Shown here one piece after another: positions 29,161-34,813 of a DNA stretch of 64,000 nucleotides. The notes beneath the pieces are model-generated. The model saw nothing but the letters and a program-made list of their open reading frames with translations, was not told where the DNA came from and searched no databases. Every line of letters starts with the position of its first letter. Within the stretch, counting starts at the first letter, position 1. This DNA comes from Spongiibacter tropicus DSM 19543 (GTDB lineage Bacteria; Pseudomonadota; Gammaproteobacteria; Pseudomonadales; Spongiibacteraceae). The position numbers and the translations under genes are program-made. Location: positions 186,001 to 250,000 of the forward strand of contig NZ_ATUS01000005.1 in the NCBI RefSeq assembly GCF_000420325.1, written 5' to 3'.

Positions 29161-29445
29161 ATGGTGATCAAACACAATACGTATTTCGACGGCAATGTGC
29201 AGTCGCTGGGATTTGAGTCTAAGGGTCAGCCGGTATCAGTCGGGGTGATGGCTGCCGGTGAATACCAGTTCGGCACCGATGCTGCCGAACGCATGCTGGT
29301 CATCAGTGGCGAGCTGAATGTCCTGTTGCCCGGTAGTGATAACTGGCAGCGATTTGGTCCGGGTGAAGAATTTAACGTGCCTGCCAATAGTGCCTTTGAC
29401 CTTCAGATTCCCGAAACCAGCAGCTACGCCTGCTTCTACGGCTGA
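29161..29445 (+). CDS. ppnP: Pyrimidine/purine nucleoside phosphorylase PpnP
   Basis: A cupin-fold protein of 94 residues, MVIKHNTYFDGNVQSLGF at the start and GEYQFGTDAAERMLVISGEL, then NVPANSAFDLQ, matching E. coli YaiE (DUF1255), which phosphorolyses several nucleosides. ATG 29161 follows CAGAGGGTCA. It stands 40 bases after the RND gene but is probably independent. It ends before a strong hairpin shared with the convergent DUF1704 gene. Confidence 0.93.
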   Translation: MVIKHNTYFDGNVQSLGFESKGQPVSVGVMAAGEYQFGTDAAERMLVISGELNVLLPGSDNWQRFGPGEEFNVPANSAFDLQIPETSSYACFYG

Positions 29446-29452
29446 TCAGTTT

Positions 29453-29479
29453 GTCCTCTGGCTTGTCTTGCCAGAGGAC
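29453..29479. terminator. Hairpin between convergent ppnP and DUF1704 genes
   Basis: GTCCTCTGGC (29453-29462) and GCCAGAGGAC (29470-29479) pair perfectly over ten bases with a seven-base loop. It lies in the 39-base gap between convergent stops and could act in both directions, although the trailing T-runs are short. Confidence 0.65.
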
Positions 29480-29484
29480 GCTTC

Positions 29485-30777
29485 TCATGTTGAAAACAGC
29501 GATTGATAGTGCGCCTGCACACTTTGCAGGTCGAGCTTGGACAGACCGCTGGAAAACCCAAACCACACATACAAGCCATTCAGGTCGCGAAACATGGGCG
29601 GCAGATAGCGCGGTGGCTCGATAATACCTTCCTGCATATAGCGATACAGTACCGGTACGTCATCCAGGCTCACCTTGCCCACAAACAGCAGGGGCAACAG
29701 CTGCGGGGCGTCGGCCAGAATGGCGCTGCGGATGAAGTTCACCGTTTCCACCAGTCCTTTCACATAGGACAGATCCTTGGTGAAGCAACTGCCGCCCGCC
29801 ACCATGCCACCTCGGAACACCCGCTGAGCGATTTTGTAGCACTCGCGTTCATTCAGCCCCTGTGCCAGAAAATGACGGTAGACCTCGATAAAATCAGCGC
29901 CTCGCTCGGCCATATCGATGGCGACCACCCGGTCGCTGATCTTGCGTGCCCGGCCGGGGAAAGAGCTGAAGGTCAGTGTTTCGATCAACACTGCCAGTCC
30001 TTCCTGGAGTGCGGTAATACGTGGTGATCCGACACTCAGCCAGCTCGCCCAGGGTTGTGATCGACCGTTGAGAGTCGTGCCCACATGCACCCAGCCTTCG
30101 TGCACTTCCAGTACTTGCAGTTCCAGCTCGGAAAAATTGGCGTGGGTGTTCACCTTGATGCAGTCGCCCCCGGCAGAGGCGTCTGACACGATGCCATCAG
30201 ACTCTTTGACGCTGAAGTTGCTGCCATCGAAAAAGGGCAGCAGTCGCTGCTGAAGCTGGCGGACGGCTTCATCGGCGGGAATGTTCTTGGGGTAGGGGGC
30301 GGAGAGGTGGTGAGCGGCGGGCAGCGAAAAGATATCGCAGAAGCGCTGTCCCATCTCAATCAGAGGCGTCGTATCGCCATTCAGGGCGTCGCTTGCTGAG
30401 CCGTAGAGCTGTCGGCTGGCGGTGAGGAATGCTGGCGTGCCGCGGGCGGCGAGCAGCTCGGTAACACGCTGATACTGCTCGGCTGTTTCCCAAAGAATAT
30501 GGCCCAGTGGATCCGCTTCGCCAAGACGGTTATGCAGTCGCTGCTGAAAGTCTGACAGCTGGCGCTGCAACACTGCCGGTTCGAAATTCAGCGGGTTATT
30601 CTGCTGATAGAACGCACTGTCTATATCCGGCAGGCGCTGGGCATTGTTGGCAAAGAACGTCTGCTCGACCGACTGAGGCCACTTGATAGCATCAAGAATC
30701 AGTATCGGCTTTTGAATGGCAATCAATTCGTCTGATAGTTGGCGCAGTGTTTCGCGGTAGGTCTCGGTAACAGCCAT
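29485..30777 (-). CDS. DUF1704 (QEGLA-motif, MATCAP-type) putative zinc metallopeptidase
   Basis: A protein of 430 residues from ATG 30777 (MAVTETYRE) behind AGGATC. It belongs to the family named for 'flavohemoglobin expression-modulating QEGLA motif', now seen as relatives of the eukaryotic MATCAP tubulin carboxypeptidases. The putative metal site is visible: H226-E227-x-x-x-H231 in VHEGWVHVG and E259 in LQEGLAV. The C-terminal half has FRGGMVAGGSCFTKDLSYVKG. No signal peptide, so cytosolic. The C39-GNAT gene overlaps upstream on the same strand. Peptidase activity is inference from the family; the NO-related name reflects an early annotation. Confidence 0.88.
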   Translation of the reverse strand: MAVTETYRETLRQLSDELIAIQKPILILDAIKWPQSVEQTFFANNAQRLPDIDSAFYQQNNPLNFEPAVLQRQLSDFQQRLHNRLGEADPLGHILWETAEQYQRVTELLAARGTPAFLTASRQLYGSASDALNGDTTPLIEMGQRFCDIFSLPAAHHLSAPYPKNIPADEAVRQLQQRLLPFFDGSNFSVKESDGIVSDASAGGDCIKVNTHANFSELELQVLEVHEGWVHVGTTLNGRSQPWASWLSVGSPRITALQEGLAVLIETLTFSSFPGRARKISDRVVAIDMAERGADFIEVYRHFLAQGLNERECYKIAQRVFRGGMVAGGSCFTKDLSYVKGLVETVNFIRSAILADAPQLLPLLFVGKVSLDDVPVLYRYMQEGIIEPPRYLPPMFRDLNGLYVWFGFSSGLSKLDLQSVQAHYQSLFST

Positions 30778-30812
30778 AAAAGATCCTGTCTGTGGGGGCG
30801 ACACGCCCATCC

Positions 30813-31952
30813 TCATCCGTGGCGTCGGTCGATGGCAAGCAGGCAGCGCAAGCGCCGCTTGCCGTAACTGGCCATGGTGCTGAACTGGTCCAGCGAAATC
30901 GGTACATGGCGGTAATCCGCCTCAGATTGCCAATCGCTGGCACTGTCGTCCAGCGATTGGCCGTTCTCGGTGTTGCTGTCGGGGTCGTTAATAAAAACAG
31001 TGTTGGCGCTGTTGCGACTGAGGTAAACCCAGTGTGGCTGCCGACGTCGGTCCAGTGCCCAGGTGCTGATCAGCGCTACCACGTGTTCATGACGACTCAA
31101 TAGCTCAGCGAGCTGCCTGCGATCCAGTATGGCCTGCTGAATAGTGGCCGGGTACGTCGCCAACTGCTCAAGAAAGTCGCTGTGCACCCGCTCCAGCAGC
31201 TCTCGCCGGTCTTCCCCGCGCACACTGTCAAGAAAAGGCGGAGTCAGGTCGTTGATATACAGCGTGGTGTCAAAGCCTCTGCGCAGCGCTGCCAGCGCCA
31301 GCCCGTGAGGCGAGCAGCCGCCATGGCCGCGCCCCATAAAAATGGTGGTGGCTTCACGCCACAACTGTAATTCCTGACGTTGATTCAGGGCTTGAGTGGG
31401 GTCAAGTTGATGCATGGCCATCATCAGCGAGGCGGGGCCACAGGTAAATTCGGTGGTTTGGCGGTAGTAGGCCGGTGCCTGCTGCATGCCTTCTTTTGCG
31501 TGGCCGCGAAGCCGTTTTTCCATACGCAGGGCAGCCGCAGCATCCTCGTAATAGTCGGTCACCCGGTCAAAACGGCGATAGCCGCGCTGTTCGTATAGCG
31601 CGATGGCGGCACGGTTATCCTCACGCACCTCAAGCCGCAGAAACATACAGTTGCGCTGCCGGGCATGGTCTTCCGCGGCGTCCAGCAATTGCCCGGCAAT
31701 GCCTCTGCCTCGGCAATCGGGGTGGACGGCCAATGAGTATAGGCGGGCGAGCAGTGTTCCGCGGCGAAACAGCAGCAAGGCATAGCCCCGCAATACCGCG
31801 TTTTCTTCCCAGACAAGCAGGTGATGAGCGCCGTCGTGGATAAAGGCCCGTAAGCTGCGGCGGGATAGTCGATCGCCCTCAAAGCATGCGGTTTCCAGCG
31901 CCAGCAAGGCGTTGAGGTCGCTCAAAGCCGCTTCGCGAATAGCGGGATTCAC
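30813..31952 (-). CDS. GNAT acetyltransferase fused to a peptidase C39-like domain
   Basis: A two-domain protein of 379 residues. Residues 1-150 are a RimI-like GNAT domain with the acetyl-CoA loop VHPDCRGRGIAGQLL and ALYEQRGYRRF. Residues 155-379 are a papain-like C39 domain: C171 in TTEFTCGPASLMMAM, H307 in QPHWVYL and the following INDPD supply a full triad. C39 domains are known for cutting double-glycine leaders, yet here there is no membrane transporter attached and no signal. It lies 35 bases upstream of DUF1704 and divergent from the RimK-like gene, in what seems a conserved trio. Confidence 0.88.
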   Translation of the reverse strand: MNPAIREAALSDLNALLALETACFEGDRLSRRSLRAFIHDGAHHLLVWEENAVLRGYALLLFRRGTLLARLYSLAVHPDCRGRGIAGQLLDAAEDHARQRNCMFLRLEVREDNRAAIALYEQRGYRRFDRVTDYYEDAAAALRMEKRLRGHAKEGMQQAPAYYRQTTEFTCGPASLMMAMHQLDPTQALNQRQELQLWREATTIFMGRGHGGCSPHGLALAALRRGFDTTLYINDLTPPFLDSVRGEDRRELLERVHSDFLEQLATYPATIQQAILDRRQLAELLSRHEHVVALISTWALDRRRQPHWVYLSRNSANTVFINDPDSNTENGQSLDDSASDWQSEADYRHVPISLDQFSTMASYGKRRLRCLLAIDRRHG

Positions 31953-32165
31953 ACCGCTTGGCTCGGGGTAATGGACGCATTCATACTGGCAACCTGGTAG
32001 AGCGGCGGCGCCGCAAATATGGGCGGATCATACTGCGCAATATTTACTGACGACAATCCGCAGTGATCACTTGTTTAGGGTAATAGTTGGCCGCAGAATG
32101 CGCGCCATTGAGCGGCCTGTTGCCCGCTCGCTCAGGGATGCCCGTTGGGCCAGGAGAGTTGCCGC

Positions 32166-33629
32166 ATGTCCCGTTTTTTTGTGGTGGTTGATGATGTTCG
32201 CGACTGGGCGCCGTATTACCCCAGCAAGGATGTGATCAGCTTTGATGACTATCTGGCCTTGCCCGCTCAACGCGAGCGAGTGAGGGTGATTAACCTCTGT
32301 CGCTCTTACCGCTATTTGGGCAGCGGTTACTACTGCTCACTCCTGGCAGAGGCACGCGGACACAATGTGTTGCCGTCGGTGAAAACCCTCAGCGACCTCG
32401 GCCGCAAATCCCTGTCAGCGATTCAGTGGGAGGGGGTCGATCCGGTGCTGAGGGAGCTGCCCGCCGGTGAAGAGGGACAGCAGCACAAGCTGCGCTGTTG
32501 GTTTGGCGACACCTTGGATGATGCCTACCGCGATGTCGGTCGCTCGGTGTTCACGCATTTTCCCTGCCCGCTGCTTGAAATCACTCTGGAGTTTCGGCGT
32601 CGCTGGCGGCTGGAGAAGGTGCAGGCGGTCTCGCTGCGCGCCTTGAAATCCGCTGACGAGCAGGAGGCCTTTGCGACTACCTTTGAGCGCTTCAGTCGCA
32701 AAATGTGGCGCAAGCCGCCAGCGCGAAAAACCTTCCGCTACGACCTGGCGATTCTGGCTGATCCGGAAGAGGGGATGCCGCCCAGCGACAAGACGGCGCT
32801 GCGCAAGTTTATTCGAGCGGCAGAGCGACACGGCATTTCGGCTGAGCTGATTGGCAAGCGGGATTATCCCCGACTGGCTGAATATGACGCACTGTTTATT
32901 CGCGAGACCACATCGGTCAATCACCATACTTACCGCTTTGCCAAGCGTGCGGAAGCGGAGGGACTGGTGGTCATCGACGACTCCCAGTCCATTCTGCGTT
33001 GCACCAATAAAATCTACTTGGCTGACCTGTTGCGCAGCCATCGTCTGCCGGTGCCCGCGACGGAGTTCTTGCGGCGTGATCGTGACGGCGAGCTGGAGCG
33101 TCTGGTGACAACCTTGGGCTTGCCCATGGTATTGAAAGTGCCGGATGGGGCGTTTTCCAAGGGGGTGGTTAAGGTCGATACGATGGACGAATTGCGAGAG
33201 GAGAGCGCTCGTCTGCTGGACAAGTCGGCGCTGTTACTGGCGCAAGAGTTCATGTACACCGACTACGACTGGCGTATTGGTGTGCTCGATGGCAAGCCAC
33301 TGTATGCCTGTCGTTACTATATGGTGCGCAAGCATTGGCAAATTTACCGCCACGGCAAGCGCAGCCAGTCAGGCGGCTTTGATGCGGTGCCCCTGGACGA
33401 GGTGCCGAAGGCCGTGCTGGATACGGCGGTGAGCGCCTGTGCACTGATCGGAAAAAGTTTTTACGGGGTTGATCTCAAGCAGAAGGGTGACCGGGTTGTG
33501 GTGATCGAAGTCAACGACAACCCCAGTGTGGATTCAGGCGTTGAGGACAAGCTGCTGGGGGATGCTTTGTACGATGCGTTGATGAAGGTGTTTTTGCAAC
33601 GCATGGAAATGCGCGGTCGCAGAACATAA
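32166..33629 (+). CDS. RimK-family ATP-grasp ligase with N-terminal RLAN-type domain
   Basis: A cytosolic protein of 487 residues. The first about 190 residues form the N-terminal domain found in this family (RFFVVVDDVRDWAPYYPSKD and VINLCRSYRYLGSGYYCSLLAEARGH). The rest is an ATP-grasp fold of the RimK/glutathione-synthetase type, with VLKVPDGAFSKGVVKV as the nucleotide loop and VVVIEVNDNPSVDSGVED as the Mg-binding end. RimK proper adds glutamates to ribosomal protein S6; the target here is unknown. ATG 32166 follows CAGGAGAG. It is divergent from the GNAT-C39 and DUF1704 genes, with a shared promoter region of 213 bases. Confidence 0.88.
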   Translation: MSRFFVVVDDVRDWAPYYPSKDVISFDDYLALPAQRERVRVINLCRSYRYLGSGYYCSLLAEARGHNVLPSVKTLSDLGRKSLSAIQWEGVDPVLRELPAGEEGQQHKLRCWFGDTLDDAYRDVGRSVFTHFPCPLLEITLEFRRRWRLEKVQAVSLRALKSADEQEAFATTFERFSRKMWRKPPARKTFRYDLAILADPEEGMPPSDKTALRKFIRAAERHGISAELIGKRDYPRLAEYDALFIRETTSVNHHTYRFAKRAEAEGLVVIDDSQSILRCTNKIYLADLLRSHRLPVPATEFLRRDRDGELERLVTTLGLPMVLKVPDGAFSKGVVKVDTMDELREESARLLDKSALLLAQEFMYTDYDWRIGVLDGKPLYACRYYMVRKHWQIYRHGKRSQSGGFDAVPLDEVPKAVLDTAVSACALIGKSFYGVDLKQKGDRVVVIEVNDNPSVDSGVEDKLLGDALYDALMKVFLQRMEMRGRRT

Positions 33630-33631
33630 AA

Positions 33632-33655
33632 AAAACGGGCCGTCTGGCCCGTTTT
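33632..33655. terminator. Bidirectional rho-independent terminator
   Basis: AAAACGGGCC (33632-33641) and GGCCCGTTTT (33646-33655) form a perfect stem with a GTCT loop; the A-run on the left and T-run on the right give a U-tract on both strands. It lies between the convergent RimK-like and acyl-CoA dehydrogenase genes. Confidence 0.9.
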
Positions 33656-33676
33656 CCGTATTGCTTAGCGGCGGTT

Positions 33677-34813
33677 TTAGTAGCCGCAGAGGCTGGCGTA
33701 GCGGTCGCGGTGGAAACCGCTGTTACCCAGCAGATGACTGGCCATGCGCGAGCGTTTCAGAAAGAAACCGATTTCCAGTTCATCCGTCACGCCAATGCCG
33801 CCGTGCATCTGTACCGCCTCGCTGGTGACCAGCTCAAACACGTCGTTCAGACGAGCCTTGGCCAGACTGGCGAGCTGGGGCATGTCCGGGCGCTTGTCGT
33901 CGATGGCTGACAGGGCGTCAAGCACCACCGATTTAGCCAGCTCCAGCTCGATGTACATCAGTGATGCACGGTGTTGCAGGGCCTGGAAGGAGCCGATTTT
34001 GACGCCAAACTGCGAGCGCTCTTTCAGGTATTCCACGGTGCGTTGGAAGCACTCTTGAGCGCCACCCAGCATTTCAGCGGCCAGGCAGATACGGCCGCGG
34101 TCCAGTGCCGGTTCCAGCACAGGCCAGGCTTTGCCCAGTTCACCGATAAGCGCGTCGCTGCTGACCTCCACATCGAAATCGATGGCGGCGGCACCGCGAC
34201 TGTCGGCCATGCGGCGGCGGTGTCGTGAAACCCCCTGGGCGTTCCCGTCCACCAGAAACAGGCTCAGACCTTCCGCTTCGCCGGCCTTGCCGCTGCTGCG
34301 GGCCAGCACGATCAATTTGTCGGCGCTGTAGCCGTCGGTGACAAGGCTCTTGCTGCCGCTGAGGCGATAGCCTGAGGCGGTCGCTTCGGCGCGCAGAACG
34401 GTGTCGAGCGGCGCATGGTGATTGCCTTCTTCCATGGCCAGCGCCAGTGTCAGCTCGCCGCTGGCGATTTTCGGCAACAGCGCCGCCTTCTGCTCGTCGC
34501 TGGCGCCGAGCATCAGGATGGATGCGCCCAGTACCACGGTGCTCATCAGGGGCGAGGCCGCCAGTACACGGCCGCTCTCTTCAATGACGGCGCCAAGGCC
34601 CATAAAGCCGAAATCGAGGCCGTCGTATTCTTCGGGCAGGACGATGCTTGCCCAACCGAGTTCACACATCTGCTGCCAGTGTTCGCGGCTGTAGCCCATT
34701 TCATCGTCGCTGTCGCGCAGCTTGCGCAGGGCTTCGACGGGCATGTTCGCGCTCAGAAAATCCTTGGCGGTATCCTTGAGCAGGCGTTGTTCTTCATTCA
34801 GTACCAGTGCCAT
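33677..34813 (-). CDS. Acyl-CoA dehydrogenase-family protein (subunit 2 of a pair)
   Basis: A flavoprotein of 378 residues in the ACAD fold from ATG 34813 (MALVLNEEQRLL) behind GGAG. The N-terminal helices, a beta domain (LTLALAMEEGNHH) and C-terminal helices (QFGVKIGSFQALQHR and MHGGIGVTDELEIG) are present. The position that carries the catalytic Glu in classic ACADs is not obvious. It follows another ACAD by 16 bases. Such pairs are known to form heterotetramers that oxidise bulky CoA esters such as steroid side chains, so the two probably work together. Substrate is inference. Confidence 0.9.
   Translation of the reverse strand: MALVLNEEQRLLKDTAKDFLSANMPVEALRKLRDSDDEMGYSREHWQQMCELGWASIVLPEEYDGLDFGFMGLGAVIEESGRVLAASPLMSTVVLGASILMLGASDEQKAALLPKIASGELTLALAMEEGNHHAPLDTVLRAEATASGYRLSGSKSLVTDGYSADKLIVLARSSGKAGEAEGLSLFLVDGNAQGVSRHRRRMADSRGAAAIDFDVEVSSDALIGELGKAWPVLEPALDRGRICLAAEMLGGAQECFQRTVEYLKERSQFGVKIGSFQALQHRASLMYIELELAKSVVLDALSAIDDKRPDMPQLASLAKARLNDVFELVTSEAVQMHGGIGVTDELEIGFFLKRSRMASHLLGNSGFHRDRYASLCGY

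Follow-up and report, generated by a model that had tools for sequence, protein, structure and literature searches.

Within a 64,000-nucleotide stretch of the Spongiibacter tropicus DSM 19543 genome (contig NZ_ATUS01000005.1, positions 186,001 to 250,000; hereafter the window), three genes lie around a divergent intergenic region. A MATCAP-family metallocarboxypeptidase-like gene and a gene fusing a GNAT acetyltransferase to a DUF3335 papain/C39-like domain occupy one strand, and a gene for an ATP-grasp ligase carrying an RLAN domain occupies the other (Table 1). The original prediction had placed these three genes around a 213-base gap, and the arrangement is as described, the gap being correct if the ligase begins at ATG 32166. 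This start is common to most relatives, with a longer open reading frame (ORF) of 494 aa (amino acids) beginning at TTG 32145. The MATCAP and fusion genes overlap by four bases (ATGA) in the window, and a 4-base overlap is likewise present in loci L261, L264 and L265.

Table 1. Features of the cluster (window coordinates; residue numbers are those of the 443-, 379- and 487-aa proteins)
Feature	Position	Strand	Details
MATCAP-family (PF08014/DUF1704, QEGLA) metallocarboxypeptidase-like gene	29485..30816	-	443 aa; PF08014 435 bits
MATCAP E272 in the QEGLA motif, presumed third metal ligand	30001..30003	-	invariant in 13/13; aligned with human EGLA
MATCAP HExxxH metal site (H239, E240, H244)	30085..30102	-	invariant in 13/13 MATCAPs
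GNAT-DUF3335 (papain/C39-like) fusion gene	30813..31952	-	379 aa; GTG start
DUF3335 papain/C39-like domain of the fusion (Q165, C171, H307, D323)	30831..31469	-	Pfam; residues invariant in 13/13
GNAT domain of the fusion, RimI/Ard1-like protein N-alpha-acetyltransferase fold	31512..31907	-	Pfam; Foldseek top matches RimI, Ard1
Divergent intergenic region	31953..32165	.	213 bases; two sequence blocks partly conserved among relatives
RLAN-ATP-grasp ligase gene	32166..33629	+	487 aa from ATG 32166; PF14401 150 bits
RLAN domain (RimK-like ATP-grasp N-terminal domain) of the ligase	32244..32666	+	Pfam
ATP-grasp domain of the ligase	33000..33533	+	Pfam; K324, K336, E361, D436, E448, N450 invariant in 14/14
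Terminator-like hairpin 3' of the ligase gene	33630..33657	.	9 such sites in region against a shuffle mean of 4.9

The MATCAP protein exceeds the cut-offs for PF08014 (27 bits) and TIGR02421 (365 against 338.65 bits), with the closest relatives found in Spongiibacter, Zhongshania and Neomelitea at 70-73% identity. Its metal site remains invariant among aligned MATCAPs sharing 27-72% identity with it, confirming both the predicted HExxxH-plus-glutamate site and its retention in homologues; the residue numbers first given (H226/E227/H231/E259) differ from the ORF numbering because they were counted from the second Met, M14, a possible inner start at position 30777. A profile built from 13 MATCAP relatives matches structures of human KIAA0895L (7z5g, E 2.7e-12; 7z6s, E 7.9e-11), aligning the bacterial HExxxH and EGLA motifs with the same motifs in both, and this match bears out the proposed homology of the bacterial DUF1704 protein to human MATCAP. 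The window protein as a single sequence, with no profile, gives no match to these structures. Human TMCP1 and TMCP2 are described as metallocarboxypeptidases that also deglutamylate, and the characterised MATCAPs act on protein tails (PMC10499314). By analogy with these human relatives, the bacterial protein fits a putative role in metal-dependent removal of C-terminal residues.

The fusion is composed of matches to PF00583 and to PF11814 (DUF3335; 242.5 bits, cut-off 25) and is full-length in all 14 relatives in which the genes cluster. Across 13 near relatives (45-62% identity) Q165, C171, H307 and D323-P-D325 are invariant, retaining the predicted C171/H307/INDPD triad in close homologues apart from N322 of the motif, which is not conserved. 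A structure model (predicted local distance difference test, pLDDT, 80) gives the RimI and Ard1 N-terminal acetyltransferases as best Foldseek matches, and despite this fold match the protein stays below the RimI cut-off (TIGR01575; 77.1 against 86.4 bits). The DUF3335 domain alone falls short of the bacteriocin ABC transporter peptidase C39 family (PF03412; 13.9 against 22 bits), and its sequence matches solved structures only at E 0.14 or worse, with BtrH-like proteins among the best. Homology of DUF3335 to ACTMAP was considered and rejected: no ACTMAP model occurs among its Pfam matches to E 10, a range in which the HMMER filters drop most matches above ~0.1. One paper groups C19orf54 with the C39-like families in a broad cluster (I) and mentions DUF3335-GNAT fusions, citing Iyer 2009 (PMC10318531); the shared cluster is no close link. 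The fusion fits cutting together with N-acetylation, a transferase role being equally possible.

The ligase, whose PF14401 (RLAN) score stands against a cut-off of 25 bits, continues into ATP-grasp matches at 286-463 of the 494-aa ORF, in agreement with the predicted ATP-grasp fold bearing its own N-terminal domain. The six residues invariant among its 14 near relatives (56-74% identity), are taken to be ATP-grasp residues on general features of the fold. As a whole the ligase would fit an enzyme that spends ATP to join an amino acid to a carboxylate. Its best NCBIfam scores are to LysX (68 bits, cut-off 275.6), the RimK family (TIGR00768; 66.6 bits, cut-off 143.4) and MptN, all below cut-off, and Rimk_N (PF18030) gives no match at E 0.001. 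Because a canonical RimK is encoded separately in the same genome, on another contig, the RLAN ligase is not the ribosomal S6 ligase, a candidate rejected on this ground together with the missing Rimk_N match and the score under the RimK-family cut-off. In one relative (locus L243, genome G253) a TAG interrupts the RLAN ligase frame, the adjacent fusion frame being open.

The ligase and the fusion constitute a conserved two-gene module. Genomes were sampled at the level of class (185), order (115) and phylum (398), the samples overlapping and RLAN being counted in class and order only. In the class sample RLAN is present in 44 genomes, DUF3335 in 29 and MATCAP in 31; RLAN accompanies DUF3335 in 28 of the 29 (6.9 expected, p 9e-21; p values for the pair here and in the order sample are uncorrected for kinship, and related genomes inflate them), lying within 5 kb in 27. 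The order sample holds RLAN in 45 genomes and DUF3335 in 41. Every one of the 41 has both (16.0 expected, p 6e-27): 32 hold them no more than 5 kb apart, and the other nine carry them at distinct loci or on different contigs. The class count of DUF3335 omits G004, G016, G049 and G116, which have short matches of at most 24.5 bits, two of them passing the cut-off when in-frame neighbours are counted; with these four restored, 30 of 33 DUF3335 genomes carry RLAN (G004 and G116 do, G016 and G049 do not). Ligase and fusion behave as a unit. The families of the pair have reportedly been described in print, in the amidoligase survey of Iyer et al. in 2009.

A second metallopeptidase family recurs beside the pair. 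Long matches to DUF2817, presumably an M14-like carboxypeptidase, occur in 16 of the 115 order genomes (34 at E 0.001, less 18 weak partial matches), and nine of these 16 have it within 5 kb of DUF3335. In four of the 14 clustered loci described below (L264-L267) a DUF2817 gene separates the ligase from the fusion and shares a 4-base overlap with the latter in every case; the window genome, for its part, gives no more than a weak, partial DUF2817 match (E 3e-7, profile 46-116). These loci suggest that the metallopeptidase slot beside the pair can hold DUF2817, MATCAP, both or neither. Other companions of the pair were also seen: related genes at L217:8198-8920 (2OG-Fe(II) oxygenase-like by Pfam) and L244:5790-6641 adjoin the pair in G190 and the ligase in G259, and in L129 and L130 an RLAN ligase lies next to a gene of one cluster (in L130 a C39_2-like peptidase by Pfam), with no GNAT there.

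MATCAP is an add-on joined to this pair in a few lineages, not a conserved third member. The conserved co-occurrence anticipated for all three families holds for two of them, ligase and fusion; a conserved three-gene system in the form proposed was rejected, as MATCAP is mostly unlinked in the class, order and phylum samples. It is present in 31 of 185, 27 of 115 and 47 of 398 genomes, respectively. In the order sample it accompanies RLAN in 17 genomes (10.6 expected, p 0.004; 0.027 without the window's own family) and DUF3335 in 17 (9.6 expected, p 0.0009; 0.009 without that family), and co-occurrence with DUF3335 stands at 4 against 4.9 expected in the class and at 14 of 398 against 6.8 expected in the phylum (p 0.003, with many close relatives). 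Among genomes holding MATCAP together with DUF3335, a spacing of 5 kb or less is seen in 1 of 4 for the class (the window genome), in 7 of 17 for the order and in 1 of 14 for the phylum (again the window genome). The seven in the order are, in the window's family, the window genome itself with G206, G245 and G277 and, in other families, G216, G259 and G190.

A nearest-relative scan with eight short MATCAP queries, taking the best 80 of 421 relatives, revealed fusion and ligase adjoining MATCAP in 14 loci. Eleven belong to Spongiibacter, Zhongshania, Neomelitea, UBA5047 and Litorivivens and three to unclassified bins, two of them gammaproteobacterial with the window's orientation and one (L279) with a different gene order. 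In Nitrincola alkalilacustris, counted among the remaining loci, a 6.3-kb stretch holding several ORFs separates MATCAP from the pair, the three genes fitting within ~10.5 kb.

A quick tree was built from 72 MATCAPs, of which 15 are clustered; on it the label 'clustered' requires 4 changes, at least 3 of them forced by starred branches. The tree took 8 of the 14 clustered and 10 of the 66 unclustered loci of the nearest-relative scan, and omitted L222 and L226, whose MATCAP frame was missed in ORF calling, and L120. The clustered lineages are Spongiibacteraceae and kin, G259 and G190. In G259 the fusion and then MATCAP stand in tandem, with the ligase on another contig and a MATCAP 40% identical to that of the window; a fused DUF3335-MATCAP protein was considered for its 717-aa open frame and rejected, the two domains lying in different frames. 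In G190 a long-type MATCAP is convergent to the pair, one 2OG-Fe(II)-oxygenase-like gene away. Outside the window's own family, 3 of 13 order genomes with MATCAP and either partner have them within 5 kb (chance ~7e-5), or 2 of 13 with G216 counted as kin (~0.003); adding eight such class genomes, none linked, gives 3 of 21 (3e-4) and 2 of 21 (0.008), all figures assuming random gene placement and a 25-kb span chosen afterwards.

MATCAP also lies beside other ATP-grasp ligases. The class and order samples yield 56 MATCAP loci, 16 long and 40 short, some stopping at contig ends, with the two copies of G164 counted once and the broken copy of G027 left out. Among the long MATCAPs (~625-700 aa), 14 of 16 have a glutathione-synthetase-like ATP-grasp gene no more than 1 kb away (L111, L113-L119 and L237-L242), a tighter pairing than that of ligase and MATCAP in the window; the one such gene tested, that of L119, belongs to subfamily PRK12458. 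Nine of the 16 are near an N-formylglutamate amidohydrolase-like match, two of these matches overlapping the MATCAP match by 50-71 bases and possibly lying in its N-terminal half, a half that in L119 gives no Pfam match. Within 5 kb, short MATCAPs are near RLAN in 5 of 40 loci (four being the window genome and its family) and near rimK in 4 of 40, the latter with a chance of 8e-6 if each genome has one rimK. Counting both types, rimK lies within 5 kb in five genomes (loci L097, L098, L235, L236 and L239), with a rimB-like match in G152, G029 and G249 and alone in G187 and G219. In these locus counts the association of MATCAP with ATP-grasp ligases is strong for the long type and weak for the short. 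Among L092, L098 and L125, a CorA-like Mg transporter gene adjoins MATCAP in two genomes and the RLAN ligase in the third. Eight recurrent neighbours were seen at five unclustered MATCAP loci: aldehyde dehydrogenase, M48 peptidase, EF-G, MlaC, thymidine kinase, Na/H antiporter, MFS and an eighth with no family.

The divergent region contains one promoter-like match (- strand, 32056-32027), and over 29300-33800 such matches are no commoner than in shuffles (1 against a mean of 1.8). Two blocks recur in the divergent regions of Spongiibacteraceae, one around CATTCTGCG(G/A)CCA in 7 of 8 and one around AAATATTGCGCAGTATGATCC in 5 of 8, a single change being present in two of the five; both may be sites of a divergent promoter or operator. 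On its other side MATCAP adjoins the segment 24786-29445, composed of an RND efflux gene (PF00873, 26007-29120), a Ppnp gene and the gene preceding RND, which belongs to a cluster common to relatives; the same MATCAP surroundings are present in G245. None of the three cluster proteins matched a PADLOC defence model at 1e-5, and an anti-phage defence system was rejected on this result. A peptide or carrier gene between the cluster genes was considered and rejected, the gaps there reaching at most 274 bases and short ORFs falling outside the search.

We read the locus as a two-gene module with an attached carboxypeptidase, in which ATP-grasp extension and MATCAP trimming of a peptide or protein end would be joined by cutting and acetylation by the fusion, and we put the probability of this reading at roughly 0.4. 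The RLAN-ATP-grasp enzyme would use the terminal or a side-chain carboxylate of a peptide or protein as acceptor for an amino acid, and MATCAP would remove residues from the same C-terminal end, the two jointly setting tail length. On the same substrate, the cysteine-hydrolase domain of the fusion may cut or transfer and the RimI-like GNAT acetylate the resulting amino end, with DUF2817, beside the fusion in some relatives with or without MATCAP, taken as a second, optional metallopeptidase. We infer one common substrate for the three proteins, these directions of reaction, and a peptide or protein end as that substrate. Of the original prediction, the enzyme classes, the intact sites and a repeated MATCAP/ATP-grasp pairing are supported, and the conserved three-gene system is given up.

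Several observations weigh against this reading. MATCAP and RLAN co-occur in the class close to expectation (9 against 7.4, p 0.3), and MATCAP is unlinked to DUF3335 in 3 of 4 class, 10 of 17 order and 13 of 14 phylum genomes with both. Neither partner adjoins MATCAP in 66 of the best 80 loci; among 50 of these 66 genomes checked, some of them incomplete bins, 27 showed no RLAN and 23 showed RLAN somewhere, and MATCAP therefore has work without the RLAN ligase. Of the 40 short MATCAPs, 31 have none of the three ATP-grasp ligase types within 5 kb, and four of the nine that do belong to the window's family. Short and long types are set apart by long branches in the tree, whose label changes do not distinguish gain from loss. 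The ligase structure model is too poor (pLDDT 68, root-mean-square deviation ~12.6-15.4 Å to the listed ATP-grasp enzymes) for its pocket to be read. No gene of the cluster could be recognised as encoding a substrate, and Creative Commons-licensed papers yielded no measured activity or known function for bacterial MATCAP, RLAN or DUF3335 proteins; none of the matches listed from that literature joined MATCAP-side with RimK/ATP-grasp terms.

The main rival, possible but somewhat doubtful, is that the cluster makes and turns over a small N-acetylated peptide serving as osmolyte, cofactor or signal, with no protein tagged. The ATP-grasp enzyme would join amino acids, the GNAT cap the amino end and the papain-like domain serve as hydrolase or transpeptidase, with trimming or recycling of the product left to MATCAP or DUF2817. 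N-acetylglutaminylglutamine synthetase combines an ATP-grasp part with a GNAT, and the GNAT half of the fusion does match the corresponding model TIGR03103, weakly (35.5 bits) and far from its cut-off of 569; the fold of this half is nearest to protein N-terminal acetyltransferases. LysX and MptN, two of the ligase's three best-scoring families, serve small-molecule pathways, and long MATCAPs stand beside glutathione-synthetase-like and often N-formylglutamate amidohydrolase-like genes, yet the characterised MATCAPs act on protein tails and ORF clustering found no widely recurring amino-acid biosynthesis gene beside the pair, most neighbours being unannotated. Also counted in favour is a QEGLA-family gene of Photobacterium damselae tabulated as 27.5-fold up at 1% against 3% NaCl (PMC10308900), a hint at osmotic regulation.

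Alternatively, ligase and fusion alone form the system and MATCAP is a passenger that landed alongside in one family, sharing only the transcript. The separation of MATCAP from the pair in most genomes with both favours this, as do the RLAN-less genomes among the unlinked ones, and the 14 clustered loci of the nearest 80 may derive from one or few joinings. We nevertheless consider it unlikely, given the remote MATCAP subfamilies that adjoin the fusion in G259 and stand close to the pair in G190, the 4-base MATCAP/fusion overlaps, the proximity of the three genes in N. alkalilacustris and the separate attachment of MATCAP to other ATP-grasp ligases. Scarcely credible is a variant S6 (RpsF) glutamate ligase with MATCAP in place of RimB, for which the RimK-family-like ATP-grasp and the rimK and rimB-like genes near some MATCAPs might speak, against the separate canonical RimK, the absent Rimk_N match at E 0.001 and the failed RimK-family cut-off.

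By Pfam score the window ligase and fusion are members of the RLAN-ATP-grasp/GNAT-papain pair (PF14401, PF11814), from which the window differs in having MATCAP as a third gene. MATCAP is here attached to an already known module. The extension and trimming proposed above resembles the RimK/RimB/RimA system, a known bacterial ligase/remover cycle acting on a ribosomal protein, in which an ATP-grasp ligase is paired with a protease reversing its work; the window differs in the N-terminal domain of its ligase, in its protease (an HExxxH metal site instead of a retropepsin), in the GNAT-papain fusion and in keeping its canonical RimK separate. In Pseudomonas aeruginosa the Rlo operon (RloA protease, RloB, RloC ATP-grasp) likewise combines a protease and an ATP-grasp protein, but its secreted retropepsin and membrane protein are both absent from the window cluster. 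In LysX/LysW/LysK lysine biosynthesis, a ligase and a carboxypeptidase act on the C-terminus of a carrier, LysX being the family to which the window ligase scores best, below cut-off.

The eukaryotic TTL/MATCAP (TMCP1/2) tubulin tail cycle shares with the window a MATCAP homologue with the same metal motif beside an ATP-grasp ligase, the window ligase being RimK-like with an RLAN domain and a match to TTL in enzyme class. Animals also edit actin ends, with the papain-like protease ACTMAP and the acetyltransferase NAA80. The cluster might by analogy unite the four enzyme kinds of animal actin and tubulin end editing, there split over two pathways, modifying both ends of one bacterial protein, perhaps cytoskeletal or ribosomal, as a switch resembling a cytoskeleton code; we regard this as very improbable, and homology to the eukaryotic end-editing enzymes holds for MATCAP only, the other three being enzyme-class matches. 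The pair and the repeated MATCAP/ATP-grasp attachment together provide a single testable hypothesis covering three common bacterial families, and if bacterial MATCAPs undo ligase work, the eukaryotic tubulin-tail cycle would have prokaryotic counterparts beyond RimK/RimB.

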